A model generated the notes under the pieces. The model was not told the origin of the DNA. It worked only from the letters and a program-made list of their open reading frames with translations, and made no database searches. Position numbers and translations under genes: made by a program. Of a stretch of DNA of 49,171 nt, positions 753-37,395 are shown in pieces. Position 1 is the stretch's first letter; every line of letters starts with the position of its first letter. Location: assembly GCA_023701125.1 (NCBI GenBank), contig JAMPXO010000024.1, positions 1 to 49,171 of the forward strand, in the 5' to 3' direction. Origin of the DNA: Vicinamibacteria bacterium. GTDB taxonomy: Bacteria; Acidobacteriota; Vicinamibacteria; Fen-336.

Positions 753-2861
753 TCATGCGCGAGTCCGCGTCCAGCTCTCGGGCGTGCGGCGCCAGTCGGC
801 GGCGACCGGCAGCGCCAGCAGGCGGCAGTCGTGGGCGCCGCCGCCCTCCTCCAGCAGCAGCCCCGCCTCGAACAGCGGTTGCAGGCACTCGCGCGGACGC
901 GCGACGAAGTCCGCCGCGCAGAAGCGGAGCGCCGTCGCATCCGCGCCACGGGTCGCTTCCCCGTCGGGCGGCTCGCGCCGGGCAGAGCCCGGCGCTCGGG
1001 CCCTCGGGGGCTCCGTCGCGAACGAACGCTCCTCCGCCCCCGAACCCCCGTCGGGCGGCTCGCGCCGGGCAGAGCCCGGCGCTCGGGCCCCCGGGGGCTC
1101 CGTCGCGAACGAACGCTCCTCCGCCCCCGAACCCCCGTCCGCGTGCTCGCGCGCCAGGCGCAGCAGTCCGGACAGGGTGCCGACGTCGGTCAGCGCGGGC
1201 ACGATCGCGGCGGCGAAGCCGCCCAGCCGCCACTGCCGCGGACCGAAACCCGGGCGCCGGTCGTCGACCACCACCTCGTCCCCGATCTGCTGCCAGGTCA
1301 GCAGGCAGTCGTCCTCGCGCCAGGCCGCGCACCAGGCCATCACGGCCTGCGCGAACTCCCGCACGTGGGGCCCGAGCTGGGCGCCGCGCACGTCTTCGAA
1401 GAAGTAGCCGATCCGCGCCAGCGCGTCGTCCCCGAACGGGTGCAGGAAGTGGTAGTCGGCGGCTGGCCGCAGCTCGAGGCCGAACGCCTGCGGCTCCCGC
1501 TGATAGGGGCTGAAGCGGTGGAACTCGACCGGCGCGACCGCCGCGGGCGGGTGCAGGTGGGCGAGCTTCGGCAGCAGCTCCCGCAGCGGTGCGTAGTCGT
1601 CCGCGTGCTCGCCGGGGATGCCGACCAGCAGGTTGTACGCAGGCAGCAGTCCGAGCTCCCGCGCGTGCTTGAGGAAGGCGACGTTCTGCAGCGGCGTGAC
1701 GCCCTTGCGGATCTGCTGGAGCAGGCGCGCCGACAGGCTCTCGATCCCCGGCTGGACGGCGGTGATGCCCGCCGCCACCAGCCGCTCCGCCTGCGCGCGG
1801 CGCACGTTGGCCTTGATCTCGTAGAAGAACTGAACGCGCACGCCGCGCCGCGCCGTCCACTCCGCGAAGCGCTCGTCGTAGCGCGGGGCCAGGATGTTGT
1901 CCGTCATCAGCAGGTGGCCGACGCGATGGCGCTCGACCACCGCCGTCACCTCGTCGAAGAAGCGCTCGGGGCTCTTCGTGCGGTAACCCATGCCAGAGGC
2001 GTTGAGACCGCAGAAGGTGCAGTGCTGGCGCTCGCCCCACCAGCAGCCGCGCGACGACTCGAGCGCCAGCGTCAGCTCGCGGGTTTCGCCGAGGCCGGAG
2101 CGGGTGAAGGCCTCGACGTAGTCGTCGAAGTCGGGCACGGGCAGGCTGTCGAGGTCCGCCAGCGGCACGGCCGCGGGGCCGGTGAGCGGCTGGCCGTCGG
2201 GTCCCCGGCGCACGAGGCCGGCGACGTCGTCCGTCGCCTGACCGTCGGCCCGTCGCCGCACGTAGTCGGGAAACGCGTGGTCGACCTCGCCCTCGAACAC
2301 CGCGTCGAGGAACGGGAACAGCTCGAGCAGCGCCCGGCCCATGCCGCCGTCCGCGTTGGCCCCGCCCAGCACCACGTGCTGCTGCGGCCGCAGCGCCTTG
2401 AGCCGCTTCGCCAACGCCAGTGCCGGAACGTTCTGGAAGAAGGTCGACGCCAGCCCGACCACGTCGAAGCCCGAGAGCCGCTCGGCCATCGCCTCGACCC
2501 ACTCCACGGCCCGCTCGCGCAGGGCGAGGATCGCCCGCCCGCGAGCGATGGACGCGGGCGCGTCGCCGTGGCGCGCGAAGTAGGCCTGCTGCAGGGCCGG
2601 TTGCTGCGCGGGCAGCGCGTCGCCGTGCAGCGCGCCCGCGAAGATCCACTCGTTGAAGGGATGGAAGCGGCGGCTGGTCAGCGCGTCGTAGAGGTCGGCC
2701 CGCTCGCGCGGAGCGCCCGGGAACTCGGGCACCAGGTCCAGGCCCCAGTAGAAGGTGCGGCACTCGAGACCGCGCGCCCGCACCCCCGCGTGGAGCAGGC
2801 CGAGGCCGAGGCTCGGCACCCCGGCCGGCGCGAACGGCGGATGGACGAGCGCGACCTTCAA
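753..2861 (-). CDS. Cobalamin-type radical SAM RiPP maturase (paralogue A, carries a repeat insertion)
   Basis: This 702-residue protein has a B12-binding-like N-terminal Rossmann region (start KVALVHPPF, later VVLGGANADGG) followed by a radical SAM core with Cys273, Cys281 and Cys284 in a CWWGERQHCTFC motif. That C-x7-C-x2-C spacing and context are typical of the RiPP maturation radical SAM protein 1 family, whose members often C-methylate or otherwise modify core peptides. The start is TTG at 2861, overlapping the upstream stop as TTGA; the longer frame upstream is a shadow. Compared with its paralogue at 9314-11287, it has about 58 extra residues (near 575-634) encoded by an 87-bp tandem repeat. 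The substrate is presumably one or more of the three NHLP precursors; the exact reaction is unknown. Confidence 0.88.
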   Translation of the reverse strand: MKVALVHPPFAPAGVPSLGLGLLHAGVRARGLECRTFYWGLDLVPEFPGAPRERADLYDALTSRRFHPFNEWIFAGALHGDALPAQQPALQQAYFARHGDAPASIARGRAILALRERAVEWVEAMAERLSGFDVVGLASTFFQNVPALALAKRLKALRPQQHVVLGGANADGGMGRALLELFPFLDAVFEGEVDHAFPDYVRRRADGQATDDVAGLVRRGPDGQPLTGPAAVPLADLDSLPVPDFDDYVEAFTRSGLGETRELTLALESSRGCWWGERQHCTFCGLNASGMGYRTKSPERFFDEVTAVVERHRVGHLLMTDNILAPRYDERFAEWTARRGVRVQFFYEIKANVRRAQAERLVAAGITAVQPGIESLSARLLQQIRKGVTPLQNVAFLKHARELGLLPAYNLLVGIPGEHADDYAPLRELLPKLAHLHPPAAVAPVEFHRFSPYQREPQAFGLELRPAADYHFLHPFGDDALARIGYFFEDVRGAQLGPHVREFAQAVMAWCAAWREDDCLLTWQQIGDEVVVDDRRPGFGPRQWRLGGFAAAIVPALTDVGTLSGLLRLAREHADGGSGAEERSFATEPPGARAPGSARREPPDGGSGAEERSFATEPPRARAPGSARREPPDGEATRGADATALRFCAADFVARPRECLQPLFEAGLLLEEGGGAHDCRLLALPVAADWRRTPESWTRTRA
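961..1137 (+). repeat. Two near-identical 87-bp tandem repeats inside a coding region
   Basis: Units begin at 961 and 1048 with a period of 87 bases (29 codons) and differ at one position only. Each contains a perfect 9-bp hairpin, GCGCCGGGC-aga-GCCCGGCGC (975-983 with 987-995 in the first unit). On the minus strand they encode two in-frame copies of a 29-residue stretch starting DGGSGAEERSFATEPP, inside the C-terminal linker of the radical SAM maturase. A related sequence lies between genes at 31342-31412 and a fragment at 37369-37395, so this is a dispersed repeat family that tolerates insertion into a gene. Confidence 0.85.
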
Positions 2862-9313: not shown

Positions 9314-11287
9314 TTGCTCCCCTCCACCGCGGTCCGAGTCGCGCTCGTCCAGCCGCCGTTCGGCTCCGGCATCCTGCCCGGCCTCGGTCTCGCGCTGCTC
9401 AAGGGCGAGTTGCTGCAGCGCGGCCTCGAGTGCCGGATCTTCTACTGGGACCTCGACCTGCTCGCGGAGATCCCCGGACGCACCGCGCGCGAGCGCTTCC
9501 AGGGCTTCTCCGAGTTGACGTCGCGGCCGTGGTTCCCGTTCAACGAGTGGGTCTTCGCCCAGGTCGTGCACGACGACCGCCTCGACCACCGCGCCGAGGC
9601 GCTGACGGCACGGCTGCGCCCGTTCGCCCGCAGCCGCCGCAACGGCGAGGCGCTGGCCGAGCATCTGCTCGGGTTGCGCCGCGACGCGCCCGCGGTGGTC
9701 GACCGCTGCGTCGACCAGCTCGCGGCCTACGACGTGGTCGGCATCGGCACGACGTTCCTGCAGAACACGGCGGCGCTGGCGCTGGCCCGCCGCGTCAAGC
9801 AGCGCTGGCCGCACAAGACGGTCGTGCTCGGCGGGGCCAACTGCGACGGCGAGATGGGGGCTGCGCTGCTCGAGCACTTCCCGTTTCTCGATCACGTCTT
9901 CTCGGGCGAGGTCGACTTCGCCTTCCCGGCGTTCGTGCAGGCGCTCGCGGCCGGACAGCCGGCCGGCGACGTGCCCGGCCTCATCTCCCGAGACGGCGCG
10001 GGCCGCGTGACGGGGACGCCGGCACCGCCGCTCGGCGCACTCGACGCGCTCGCCGTTCCCGACTACGAGGACTACACCGAGGCCTTCCACCGCCACGGCC
10101 TCGACGGCTTCCTGCGGCTGACGCTCTCGCTCGAGTCGTCGCGCGGCTGCTGGTGGGGCGAGCGCCACCACTGCACGTTCTGCGGACTGAACGCCGGCGG
10201 CATGGCGTTCCGGCGCAAGAGCCCCGAGCGCTTCGAGGCCGAGGTCGACGAGGTCGTGCGCCGCTACGGCGTGCGCTATCTCTACATGGCCGACAACATC
10301 CTCGCGGTCGACTACTACGGCGGCCTGCTCGAACGCATGCGCCCGCGCGACGTCGAGTTCTTCTACGAGATCAAGTCGAACGTGACCCGCCGCCAGGTCG
10401 CCAGCCTGGCCGCCGGCCACGTCAGCTACGTGAAGCCCGGCATCGAGCACTTCTCGTCCGCGATCCTGGCCCGCATGCGCAAGGGGGTCACGGGCATCCA
10501 GAACGTCGCCCTGCTGCGACTGGCGCGCGAGTACGGCGTGCTCGTCGATTACGGCTTCCTCGTCAACTTCCCGGGTGAAGAGACGGAGGAGTACGACCGC
10601 CTCGCGCTGGAGTTGCCCAGGCTCAGCCACCTGCGCCCGCCCGTGGCGCTGACCCCGATCGAGTTCCACCGCTTCAGTCCCTATCACCAGGACCCCGCGC
10701 AGTTCGGCCTCGCGCTGCGACCCTGGCGGGAGTACGCGGAGATCTACCCGCTGCCCGAGGACCAGGTCGCGCGCGTCGCCTACGTGTTCGAGAGCTCGCA
10801 GGGGGTGCCGCCGGACTTTGCGCACCTGCGACGGCTGCTCGAACAGGTGCGGCGCTGGCACGCGCTGTACGACGAGCAGCGCTGCACGCTGGTGTGGGAG
10901 GCCGACGGCGACGACGTGGTCGTCGACGACACGCGGCCCGGGTTCGGGCCCCGTCGCTACCGCGTCAGCGGCTTCGCCGTCGAGGTCTTGCGCCTGCTCG
11001 ACGAGCCGAAGCCGCTGCTGGCCCTGTCGCGAGCCGCGGCGGCCGCCGCGAGTGCCGCCGTGCCCGCCCCGCCCCCGCTGCGAGCGGACGAAACCGCGAT
11101 CCACTTCGACGCGGGCGCCTTCCGCGCAGACCCCGAGGCGTGCCTCGCTCCGCTGCGCGAAGCGGGGCTGCTTTTCGAAGAGGCTCTCTCGCGGCTCGCG
11201 GGCTCCAACGCCACGGAGACCTACGCGCTGGCGCTGCCGGTACCACGCGCCTGGCGTCCGGCCAACCTCGACTGGCTCGTCTACTGA
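9314..11287 (+). CDS. Cobalamin-type radical SAM RiPP maturase (paralogue B)
   Basis: This 657-residue protein is a full-length paralogue of the maturase at 753-2861. It has a B12-binding-like N-terminus (VRVALVQPPFGSG, VVLGGANCDGEMG), a radical SAM core with Cys279, Cys287 and Cys290 (CWWGERHHCTFC) and a C-terminal domain without the repeat insertion of paralogue A. The start is TTG at 9314, nine bases after the protease stop; no ATG or GTG fits better. Both maturases probably act on the NHLP precursors, perhaps at different positions or on different precursors. Its last seven bases overlap the convergent HTTM gene. Confidence 0.88.
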   Translation: MLPSTAVRVALVQPPFGSGILPGLGLALLKGELLQRGLECRIFYWDLDLLAEIPGRTARERFQGFSELTSRPWFPFNEWVFAQVVHDDRLDHRAEALTARLRPFARSRRNGEALAEHLLGLRRDAPAVVDRCVDQLAAYDVVGIGTTFLQNTAALALARRVKQRWPHKTVVLGGANCDGEMGAALLEHFPFLDHVFSGEVDFAFPAFVQALAAGQPAGDVPGLISRDGAGRVTGTPAPPLGALDALAVPDYEDYTEAFHRHGLDGFLRLTLSLESSRGCWWGERHHCTFCGLNAGGMAFRRKSPERFEAEVDEVVRRYGVRYLYMADNILAVDYYGGLLERMRPRDVEFFYEIKSNVTRRQVASLAAGHVSYVKPGIEHFSSAILARMRKGVTGIQNVALLRLAREYGVLVDYGFLVNFPGEETEEYDRLALELPRLSHLRPPVALTPIEFHRFSPYHQDPAQFGLALRPWREYAEIYPLPEDQVARVAYVFESSQGVPPDFAHLRRLLEQVRRWHALYDEQRCTLVWEADGDDVVVDDTRPGFGPRRYRVSGFAVEVLRLLDEPKPLLALSRAAAAAASAAVPAPPPLRADETAIHFDAGAFRADPEACLAPLREAGLLFEEALSRLAGSNATETYALALPVPRAWRPANLDWLVY

Positions 11288-27987: not shown

Positions 27988-28016
27988 GTGACGCCTCCCG
28001 GCCCCTTTGCTAGACT
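27988..28016 (+). promoter_or_regulatory. Promoter candidate for the aldehyde dehydrogenase
   Basis: GTGACG (27988-27993) and TAGACT (28011-28016), spacer 17. Only four of six matches in each box. It lies in the 227-base divergent spacer 27852-28078, which otherwise holds no gene. Confidence 0.4.
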
Positions 28017-28078
28017 CGTCCGACTCTCTGGCGGGGCTCGCTGCGCCGATCGAGGAGTCTCCCGGGGCTGGAGGAAGA

Positions 28079-29692
28079 GTGACCGACCGCGACCTGCGCT
28101 CCGTGCAACAGGCCCGAGACCTCGCGGTCCGCGCGCGCGAGGCCCAGGCGGCGCTGGCGCGCTTCAGCCAGGAGCAGGTCGACGCGATCGTGGCGGCGAT
28201 GGCCGCGGCGACCCGGCCCGAGGCCGAGCGCCTCGCCCGCCTCGCCCACGAGGAGACCGGCTACGGCAACGTCGCCGACAAGACCCGCAAGAACCTGTTC
28301 GCGTCCGAGGACGTGGCCGCGTTCATCGCGCCGATGAAGACGGTCGGGGTGTTGCGCGAGGACCGCGAGCGCCGGGTGCTCGAGATCGCCGAGCCGATGG
28401 GCCCGGTGGCCGCGGTGATCCCCTCGACCAACCCCACCTCGACCGCGATCTTCAAGGCCCTGGTCTCGATCAAGGCCCGCGACGCCTGCGTGCTCTCCCC
28501 GCACCCGTCCGCCGAGAAGTGCATCCTCGAGACCCACGCCGTCCTGCTCTCCGCGGCCCGCCAGGCCGGGCTGCCGGAGGCGGCCCTCTCCTGCATGACG
28601 GACGTGACCCTCGAGGGCACCCAGGAGTTGATGAAGCACCGCGAGATCGCGGTGATCCTGGCCACCGGCGGGATCGGCCTCGTGCGCGCGGCGTACTCGT
28701 CGGGCAAGCCCGCCTACGGTGTGGGCCCCGGCAACGTGCCGGTCTACGTCGACCGCAGCGCCGACGTGGCGCAGGCCGCGCGCGACCTGATCGCCGGCAA
28801 GACCTTCGACTTCGGGACGCTGTGCTCTTCCGAGCAGGCGGTCGTCTGCGACCAGGCCGTCGCCGACGCGTTGCTCTCGGAATTGCAGAAGAACGGCGCC
28901 CACGTGCTGTCGGACGCGGACGCCGGGAAGGTCGCGGCGACCGTCGTCCAGCCGAACCTGCTGCCCAACCCGAGGATCGTGGGCAAGCCCGCGGCGTACA
29001 TCGCGGCGCTGGCCGGGGTGACGGTGGCCCCGGACACGCGGGTGCTGCTCGCGCGGCTGAACGGGGTCGGCCGCGACCACCCGCTGTCGATCGAGAAGCT
29101 CTCGCCCGTGCTCGCGTTCTACGTCGTGGCGGGCCTCGACGAGGGCATCGAGCGCTGCCGCGCGCTGCTGCGCTTCGGCGGCACGGGTCACACCTGCGGC
29201 ATCCACGCGAAGGACGACGCGGCGATCCGCCGCTTCGCGCTGGCCCAGCCCGCGTTCCGGGTGGTGGTCAACACCCAGACCTCGATGGGCGCGACGGGCT
29301 ACGCCACTGCGCTCTCCCCCTCGATGAGCCTGGGCTGCGGCGCCTGGGCCGGCAACGCGACCTCCGACAACGTCACCCCCCTGCACCTGCTCCACCTGAA
29401 GCGGGTGGTGTGGGGCCTGCCGCGCGAGCAGCGACAGGCGCTGTACGATCGCCCGCCCGCGCCCGCCTCGGTGATGCCACCGCCGACGTGCGTGCCCTCG
29501 GGCTCCGCCACGGCGCCCGAGGCGGAAGCCGACGACGCTGTCGACTTCGTGGCCGAGGACGACGTCAAGCGCGCCCTGCGCGCCGGCCGCACGTTGCGGC
29601 TGCTGGAGCGCGCGATCGTCACCCCCGCGGCCCGCGACGCGGCCTCCGGGCATCGCGTGCTGGTGCGGGCGGACGGGGAGCCGTGGGCGTGA
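28079..29692 (+). CDS. CoA-acylating aldehyde dehydrogenase with C-terminal extension
   Basis: This 537-residue protein converts acetaldehyde or a related aldehyde plus CoA to acyl-CoA. Motifs: [27 protein letters not shown] and the catalytic Cys249 in [11 protein letters not shown], all typical of EutE/AdhE-N-type enzymes. About 80 residues follow the core: a proline-rich linker, then [28 protein letters not shown]. This tail motif resembles segments seen in proteins of ethanolamine and propanediol utilisation (inference), but no microcompartment shell genes are present. GTG start at 28079 with GGAGGA just upstream. Its stop overlaps the mltD start (GTGA). Confidence 0.87.
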
Positions 29693-31326
29693 GGCGCTTC
29701 GGGACGCTCGCGCTCGCCGTCGTCGCCACGGGCCTCGTCGGCTGCGGCGCGGGCCGCTCGACGCCACCGAATACCGTGCCGAAACCAGTCGCCAGCGCGG
29801 CCGACGCGGTGACGAAGCGGATCGCACAGGCCGAAGAACTGCTGCGCGAGGGGCTCGCCGACCTGCGCCAGGGCCACGTCAACGGCGCTCGCGAGCGGTT
29901 CGACGCCGCGGTGGAGCTGTACCTGGAGGCCCCCGGCGGCGCCTACTCCGACCCGCGGCTGGCCGAGGCGTATCGCAAGACGCTGGAGACCGTGCACGTC
30001 GCCGAGGTCGAGGCGATGGCCCAGGGCCAGGGCCTGGGCGAGACCGGGCTGGAGCCCGCGCTGATCGACGAGGTCGGCGACCTGCCGATGAACACCCACG
30101 CCAGCGCGGAGTCCCGGCGCACGGCCGAGGCGGCGGTGGCCGAAGAGGTCAACGACTTCCCCGTCGAGCTCAACGACACGGTGCTGGCCTCGATCGACCT
30201 GTACCAGGGCCGGCTGCGCGACTGGTTCGGCGAGGCGCTGGCCCGCGGCGGGCGCTACCTGCCCCACATCCGCGAGACCTTCGCGAAGGAGGGCATCCCC
30301 CAGGACCTGGCCTACGTGGCGCTGGTCGAGAGCGCCTTCAAGACGAGCGCCTACTCCCGGGCCAAGGCCCGCGGCGTGTGGCAGTTCATCCCGGCCACGG
30401 GCAAGCGCTACGGCCTCCGGCAGGACTGGTGGATCGACGAGCGCTCCGACCCCAAGAAGGCCACCGAGGCGGCGGCCAAGTACCTGAAGACGCTGTACGA
30501 GCTGTTCGGCGACTGGAACCTGGCACTGGCCGGCTACAACGCGGGCGAGGGCCGCATCAGCCGCGGCCTGAAGAAGTACGGCGTCGACGACTTCTGGTCC
30601 CTGGCGCAGACCCGGGCGCTGGCCCGCGAGACGAAGAACTACGTGCCGCTGATCCACGCGGCGATCGTGGTCGCCAAGGCGCCCGAGAAGTACGGCTTCA
30701 CGGTCACGCCCGACGCGCCGCTGGCCTACGACCGGGTGGCGGTGGAAGGTGCGGTCGACCTGCGCACGGTCGCCGAGTGCGCGGGGGCCGACCTCGAGGC
30801 CGTGCGCCAGCTCAACCCGGAGCTGCGGCGGATGGCGACGCCCGCCAACCGCACGTTCGACGTGCGCATCCCCCCGGGCGGCGGCCAGGCCGCCAAGGCG
30901 TGCCTCGACTCGTTGCCCGCCGACAAGCGCCTGCGCTTCCGCACCCACACGGTCGCCCGCGGCCAGACGCTGTCCGTGATCGGCCGCAAGTACGGGCTGA
31001 CCGCCAGCGACCTGGCCGCGGCCAACGGCTTCCCCGTCACCCGCCGGCTCTCGATCGGCCAGGAGTTGATCGTCCCCTACGAACCGCCGCGGGGAGCGAC
31101 CCGCGCCGCGGCCGCACGACCGGCGCCTGCGCCGAGAGCGCCCTCGCTCCAGACGCGCGAGGACGCGGTGCGGCTGTCGTACAAGATCAAGCGCGGCGAC
31201 ACGCTGTCCGGGATCGCCTCGCAGTACGGCACCACGGTCGGCGCGATCAAGTCCTGGAACGGCCTGCGCAGCACGAAGCTGGCGGTCGGACAGGTGCTGA
31301 CGCTCTACAGCCAGCGCCGAAATTAG
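29689..31326 (+). CDS. mltD: MltD-like lytic transglycosylase lipoprotein with two LysM domains
   Basis: This 545-residue protein has a lipobox GLVGC (Cys19), an N-terminal helical region, then an SLT domain with catalytic Glu in [21 protein letters not shown] and [15 protein letters not shown] plus AGYNAGEGR. Two LysM repeats ([18 protein letters not shown] and [18 protein letters not shown]) bind peptidoglycan. It cleaves murein in the periplasm. GTG at 29689 overlaps the aldehyde dehydrogenase stop; the coupling is probably positional rather than functional. Confidence 0.93.
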
Positions 31327-31341
31327 CCACCGGGTTCCGGT

Positions 31342-31412
31342 GTCGGGCGGAGCCCGCCACCGGTCCCATGGGGGCTACGTCGCGAACGGAGTTCCTCCGC
31401 CCCCAAAACCCC
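31342..31412 (+). repeat. Dispersed palindromic repeat, intergenic copy
   Basis: Related to the 87-bp units at 961-1137: shared GTCGGGCGG start, GGGGGCT-CGTCGCGAACG middle and CCTCCGCCCCC end, with a 14-base deletion. It contains a short hairpin (CGGGC-gga-GCCCG). It lies in the 179-base spacer between mltD and yifB. A separate small hairpin (CACCGG-GTT-CCGGTG) comes just before it. Confidence 0.65.
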
Positions 31413-34142: not shown

Positions 34143-37367
<3,225 letters not shown>

Positions 37368-37368
37368 C

Positions 37369-37395
37369 GGGTTCCTCCGCCCCCAAACCCCCGGG
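37369..37395 (+). repeat. Repeat-family fragment between secA and guaB
   Basis: GTTCCTCCGCCCCCAAA (37371-37387) is identical to bases 31391-31407 of the intergenic repeat and close to the end of the coding copies at 961-1137. It lies in the 37-base spacer just before the guaB ribosome-binding region. Confidence 0.55.

Follow-up and report, generated by a model that had tools for sequence, protein, structure and literature searches.

The tandem palindromic repeat found in a radical SAM enzyme gene of a Vicinamibacteria genome most probably belongs to a family of non-autonomous miniature mobile elements of 84–87 bp, which consist of two hairpins and carry no gene of their own, and whose copies within genes would be tolerated passengers. 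We put the probability of this reading, which is built on sequence comparison, at roughly 0.78. In the mechanism that we propose, an enzyme supplied in trans would move the element by acting on its folded hairpins. A further copy could then enter the junction of an earlier copy, and near-identical neighbours would arise by local duplication, together giving rise to arrays. Landings within genes would persist only in loops or linkers, with a stop-free frame and an inserted length divisible by three (84 or 87 nt), and all others would be purged; an accepted peptide would then be a passenger that adds about 28 disordered residues.

The inserted block in the radical SAM gene

The window, by which we mean the whole stretch of 49,171 nucleotides analysed here, is contig C148 of a source genome (G000) of 5.41 Mb in 254 contigs with 73% G+C. 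Its features are collected in Table 1. Near the 3′ end of a minus-strand radical SAM gene, two 87-nt copies lie head to tail at 959–1045 and 1046–1132, identical at 86 of 87 positions (99%), and the minus-strand frame is open across both, in agreement with the preliminary description of two in-frame 87-bp units with one mismatch. Limits drawn from the element itself, CGGG...CCCCC twice, are those used in the table. Each unit contains the perfect 9-bp hairpin that had been described, GCGCCGGGC-AGA-GCCCGGCGC, and a search of the window with this hairpin gave four matches, two of them exact, where shuffles gave 0.14 on average. Relatives had also been described in the spacers at 31342 and 37369; the former is indeed a full copy, but the latter is a 25-bp relic and not a whole unit, with the start and end of the element joined and the middle lost.

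Table 1. Features of the inserted block and of related sequences in the window
Feature	Position	Strand	Basis or remark
Host gene, RiPP maturation radical SAM C-methyltransferase (TIGR03975), 703 aa including the insert	756–2864	−	NCBIfam TIGR03975, Pfam Radical_SAM
Left dinucleotide GT at the insertion	963–964		Read from sequence; family statistic
Inserted block, two head-to-tail units (174 nt including one GT)	965–1136	+	Absent from orthologue L167/G001
Element unit 1, subfamily B, 85 nt CGGG..CCCCC, 87-nt period	965–1049	+	
Hairpin 1 of unit 1, perfect 9-bp stem, loop AGA	975–995		Covariation in family
Core / hairpin 2 of unit 1 (GGGGGC ... GCCCCC)	1006–1041		Covariation in family
Element unit 2, one mismatch against unit 1	1052–1136	+	
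Hairpin 1 of unit 2	1062–1082		
Core / hairpin 2 of unit 2	1093–1128		
Right dinucleotide GT, possible 2-bp duplication, boundary approximate	1137–1138		Read from sequence; family statistic
Paralogue without insert, comparison only	9314–11287	+	
Intergenic single copy of subfamily A, following the stop of ORF 27988–31326	31331–31412	+	Core 31370–31404
Internally deleted relic of 25 bp, immediately behind the stop of ORF 34143–37367	37368–37392	+	

The host gene, whose start codon was set from homologues, matches NCBIfam TIGR03975 with 514.9 bits (cut-off 281.85), and the insert, translated in frame on the minus strand, corresponds to about residues 576–640 of the protein. The orthologue in the sister genome G001 aligns on both sides of the insert and is without about 60 residues there, in keeping with the 58 or so residues that had been expected from two 29-codon units; the alignment at the site is the same for JAMQGV010000045.1 (Vicinamibacteria bacterium isolate ACD1, L167). 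The linker is also short in the paralogue, as had been noted. AlphaFold, run on the window protein and six relatives, gave a mean pLDDT of 79 and values below 50 for residues 578–641, that is, the insert, which lies between a confident helix (564–576) and a confident strand (643–648). These low values come from a shallow alignment and are not proof, yet the predicted model fits a disordered loop added to the linker. For this enzyme, a landing in a linker of the C-terminal region, followed by duplication, would account for the 58 extra residues. The two genes for RiPP-type radical SAM C-methyltransferases, about 6.5 kb apart, hint at a RiPP locus.

Distribution, structure and target site of the family

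The preliminary description had likened the unit to mobile palindromic elements; when it was searched for genome-wide, many further copies were found, both in frame within genes and outside genes. An initial DNA search, in which 40 of the 307 candidates were scored, pointed to at least 52 places. With a strict pattern, the copies number 162 in G000, 32 in G001 and 51 in G002, while seven other genomes of the same family and 395 further genomes of the phylum contain none (G001 and G002 being counted separately). In G000, two tolerant core patterns matched 77 and 110 times, against no match for a reversed control. A covariance model under strict filters likewise found the element in each of the three genomes of the genus, but not in a further 97 relatives, among them 11 from the same family. 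As far as these searches reach, the element family is restricted to this Vicinamibacteria genus. Six contigs of the source genome (C72, C152, C177, C183, C194 and C222) start within element arrays, so that the family is probably a cause of breaks in the assembly and has more copies than were counted.

The surroundings were read for 177 core matches, a set that leaves aside 10 of the 110 matches of the second tolerant pattern. Both ends of the element were recognisable in 136 of these cores, which form 121 blocks, 108 of them single, 11 double and two triple; the remaining 41 cores, left out of the counts, are chance matches, divergent or composite copies, or lie at contig edges. In subfamily A the inserted length is mostly 84 or 85 nt, while subfamily B, to which the window copy belongs, has 87 nt and makes up 22 of the 121 blocks. 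Random pairs of units share a mean identity of 84%. In the sister genomes, much of the family has a different 38-nt core, and the main core types differ from those of G000. A two-unit array of B type in one of them (L178, G002:C3:19277–19447) is 89% like the window array and lies at a different place. Two composite copies, in which an inverted hairpin 1 of B type stands before the core (L058 near 2067 on the element strand, L181 near 1693), suggest an exchange of modules. At another locus (L069, 1993–2075), a copy starts 4 nt beyond the 3′ terminus of a tRNA gene, which was matched at 2080–2160.

An alignment of 105 units yields a consensus of two hairpins. Seven of its 14 predicted pairs have changed on both sides with pairing kept (one pair, for example, is U-A in 71 units and C-G in 33), although these figures, taken over related sequences, count units and not events. 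Folded singly and compared with shuffles, the window unit is only mildly better (z −1.73); for an 84-nt copy z is −3.51, and for the copy at 31342, folded as a shortened piece, it is −1.18.

The flanks of 83 strict single copies show a preferred site, CC-RN-CGGG. On the left, the preference is for CC-R-(T/A), with C at −3 in 60 of 83; on the right it is for R-N-C-G-G-G, with C at +3 in 56 of 83 and G at +6 in 53 of 83. Two base pairs are identical across the insert in 23 of 83 copies against 12.3 expected, a value reached by none of 2000 shuffles. However, the base at left −1 is A or T in 78 of 83, whereas its supposed duplicate at right +2 is so in 37 of 83, and such unlike biases on the two sides are a poor fit to a plain 2-bp duplication. 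The head-to-tail junction of the element reads CCCCC-RN-CGGG and thus recreates the preferred site, which would explain the tandem arrays. Adjacent units within arrays are 96–100% identical in 13 of 15 pairs and divergent in two (0.84 and 0.88); judged by identity, most arrays look like local duplication and a few like a second landing.

Copies inside genes

Whether a block lies within a gene was decided by a host-frame test, in which both flanks had to be coding and, with the insert removed, in one host frame; since the insert is removed beforehand, continuity of the frame through it is not presupposed. Coding was called on 210-nt flanks with a codon model for which the same stretches had served as training data; 110 of the 121 blocks were readable. 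(An earlier, stricter coding threshold, which this test replaced, gave 4 of 146 clusters.) One continuous host frame was found for 25 of the 72 blocks with a length divisible by three, against one of the 38 others (Fisher p = 9e-5), leaving 84 of the 110 outside such a frame. The sole exception to the length rule, a block of 172 nt (L115), may be due to chance. In the sister genomes, 32 blocks were readable, and here 8 of 23 with a length divisible by three are in frame against none of nine others (p = 0.07). Restricted to blocks whose two flanks are coding on the same strand, the comparison gives 25 of 32 against one of three and is no longer significant (p = 0.16), since very few blocks of other lengths fall in this subset. 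A cluster near 2705 of L131 proved to be a chance match and not an element, and is outside the 121 blocks.

The hosts include HisF, MoeA, RecQ, an AMP-binding enzyme and a kinase. Pfam domains continue on both sides of the insert for HisF, MoeA_N, AMP-binding, Amidohydro_1 and MFS_1, while the insert of RecQ lies between Helicase_C and RQC, and the kinase domain is split at the insert. In a scan of 19 proteins, seven were without a Pfam match at 1e-8; these were called as genes from codon usage, supplemented by sister orthologues where such were scored.

The joined flanks of 20 of 25 genic sites were searched for in G001, G002 and two other genomes. Sister orthologues span the joint with a length difference of at most 30 nt at 17 of the 20, which are thus empty, and none is filled; L049, L097 and L105 have no scored row, and the kinase (L049) may have been compared with paralogues. 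The DNA joints were also compared for eight genes including that of the window, some being blurred by divergence. Empty sites in the sisters imply that the insertions are younger than the split from them; the alternative, a repeated loss in the sisters each time, is less likely. The recent event that had been proposed for the window locus is supported at both steps, in that the insertion is absent from the sister species and that the two units are 98.8% identical to each other and 96.5% to the nearest other copy, as local duplication would leave them.

Copies of 84 nt are read in five of the six frames (phases 0, 1 and 2 on the plus strand, phases 0 and 2 on the minus strand), the unused sixth being the one that carries TAG in copies with CTAC. 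Over the 121 units, 81% of frames are open; shuffling the units lowers this share to 68%, and random host stretches give 77%, so that openness is largely due to the high G+C content. The use of five frames means that no particular peptide is conserved, which favours tolerance over a selected peptide. Taken together, the data favour a peptide that is tolerated rather than selected, with length modulo three as the filter.

Origin, relatives and significance

What moves the element was approached through two candidate transposases, neither of which was retained. The Y1 (RAYT) transposase PF01797 was found in none of G000, G001 and G002, with a control that matched in 5 of 14 genomes, and mobilisation by RAYT was therefore rejected for the three genomes of the genus. 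IS110 transposases (PF02371), considered because of the 2-bp identity, are present (three in G000, one in G001 and two in G002), but the six stretches flanking them held no convincing element halves, with matches of chance strength only (L264, E 0.76; L259, a 17-mer with three mismatches), and this source was rejected too. Beside one IS110 transposase gene (L259, 1–121 and 579–699; G000:C211), there is a direct repeat of about 120 bp, 93% identical, which is also found in a sister genome (L262, G001:C40).

If, as hairpin-prone DNA is replicated, short stretches of homology (CC-RN-CGGG) gave rise to template switching or recombination, the element could spread with no transposase. Such a spread would account for a target that resembles the element's own ends, for the lack of a linked transposase in the Y1 and IS110 searches and for the high identity within 13 of the 15 adjacent pairs, which local duplication predicts. 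We nevertheless consider it rather unlikely, because the 121 blocks are dispersed over unrelated sites with recurring ends and the two divergent pairs look like separate landings. Selection could instead act on the intergenic copies, as a functional RNA or a regulatory signal such as a terminator or mRNA stabiliser, with genic copies as accidents. Compensatory change in the hairpins, the large share of blocks outside a continuous host frame, the copy just after a tRNA gene and the relic just after a stop codon speak for this proposal; yet no Rfam family was found at the elements at gathering score in the seven sources scanned, the family is confined to one genus and the sister genomes differ in their main core types. 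Some copies may have a functional role, but as an account of the family we regard this as unlikely.

Two further proposals concern the genic copies. The tandem copy number at 961–1137 might be an assembly artefact, the true count being one or more than two, since the genome is in 254 contigs, several of which start inside arrays, and units of equal length favour collapse or expansion. This appears improbable, as the units differ by one base, both outer junctions lie in one 49-kb contig and double units occur at other loci too; in any case, the main conclusion is independent of the copy number, because gaining or losing whole 87-nt units leaves the frame intact. That the peptide is useful, subfamily B being adapted to coding regions and modifying its host proteins, is very improbable. 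Its 87-nt units are free of the in-frame TAG of subfamily A copies with CTAC, and seven of the 22 B blocks are genic and in frame, but 84-nt A-type copies occur in genes about as often and in several frames, with no conserved peptide, and disorder is predicted for the window insert. We have therefore dropped subfamily B as a coding-specialised form and retain the miniature mobile element, with its genic copies as probable passengers.

Protein-coding palindromes are best known from Rickettsia and Wolbachia, which are reduced intracellular bacteria. Published accounts describe the Rickettsia palindromic elements (RPE) of Ogata and co-workers and the Wolbachia elements as short palindromes that occur between genes and in frame within unrelated genes, which stay unbroken (PMC10969869, PMC2229807, PMC3767692, PMC3733652); RPE are reported to be 100–150 bp long, with a peptide that is conserved for each element, and inserts of RPE-1 to -3 are reported to be shared between orthologues. 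The family described here is alike in that a palindromic repeat stands in frame in several unrelated genes, with domains on both sides. It differs in its length of 84–87 bp, in the five of six frames used by 84-nt copies with no conserved peptide, in the empty sites of the scored sister orthologues and in belonging to another class of bacteria, the comparison being one of descriptions and not of sequences. The likeness to Rickettsia that had been drawn earlier thus holds for the mode of working and not necessarily for descent, and the family here differs in using several reading frames.

REP elements are reported to be high-copy hairpin repeats of 20–40 bp, some within genes, with a GTAG superfamily, linked to RAYT, and a CGTC superfamily, in which the tag CGTC is followed by an 8–9-bp stem with a 4–5-nt loop (PMC3733652). 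Hairpins, high copy number and some genic copies are shared, whereas units of 84–87 bp in head-to-tail arrays and the lack of a Y1 transposase in the genus are not; furthermore, CGTC in our core is followed by GCGAACGGAGCTCC, and the alignment and consensus structure do not contain the described stem and loop. MITE-like elements (the 107-bp form of NEMIS/Correia, ERIC, YPAL) are also non-autonomous with some in-frame fusions. However, MITE terminal inverted repeats are given as 15–30 bp (PMC3733652), while the ends of our element, CGGGTT and AAACCCCC, pair over only about five bases on inspection of the alignment. In Neisseria, NEMIS/Correia is reported to enter genes in its open-frame 107-bp form but scarcely in its 155-bp form, which has stops (PMC2229807), a form-dependent entry that parallels the length rule, although exclusion here is by length modulo three and not by stop codons. 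As at least one tested feature fails for each known family, we class the repeat as a new family of a known kind; titles and abstract openings on repeats in Acidobacteria and Vicinamibacteria contained no earlier description of it. A stronger claim, which we make only tentatively, is that it exemplifies a new, frame-blind class of miniature element. This would be a double hairpin of high GC content, stop-free in most frames, accepted in genes mainly by length modulo three, and targeting a sequence that its own joined ends recreate, and its mobiliser would be an enzyme other than a Y1 or a linked IS110 transposase.

The family provides a further case, in which a 5.4-Mb genome with 73% G+C shows the same outcome as Rickettsia and Wolbachia with many examples. 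With empty and filled sister pairs and length classes side by side, the question of a selected versus a tolerated peptide becomes testable. For annotation, it serves as a warning that disordered insertions of 28–29 residues in HisF, RecQ, MoeA and other proteins may be mobile DNA. Finally, should the frame-blind class prove true, the core types and length classes that differ between congeners would constitute a natural experiment on the gain of disordered segments.
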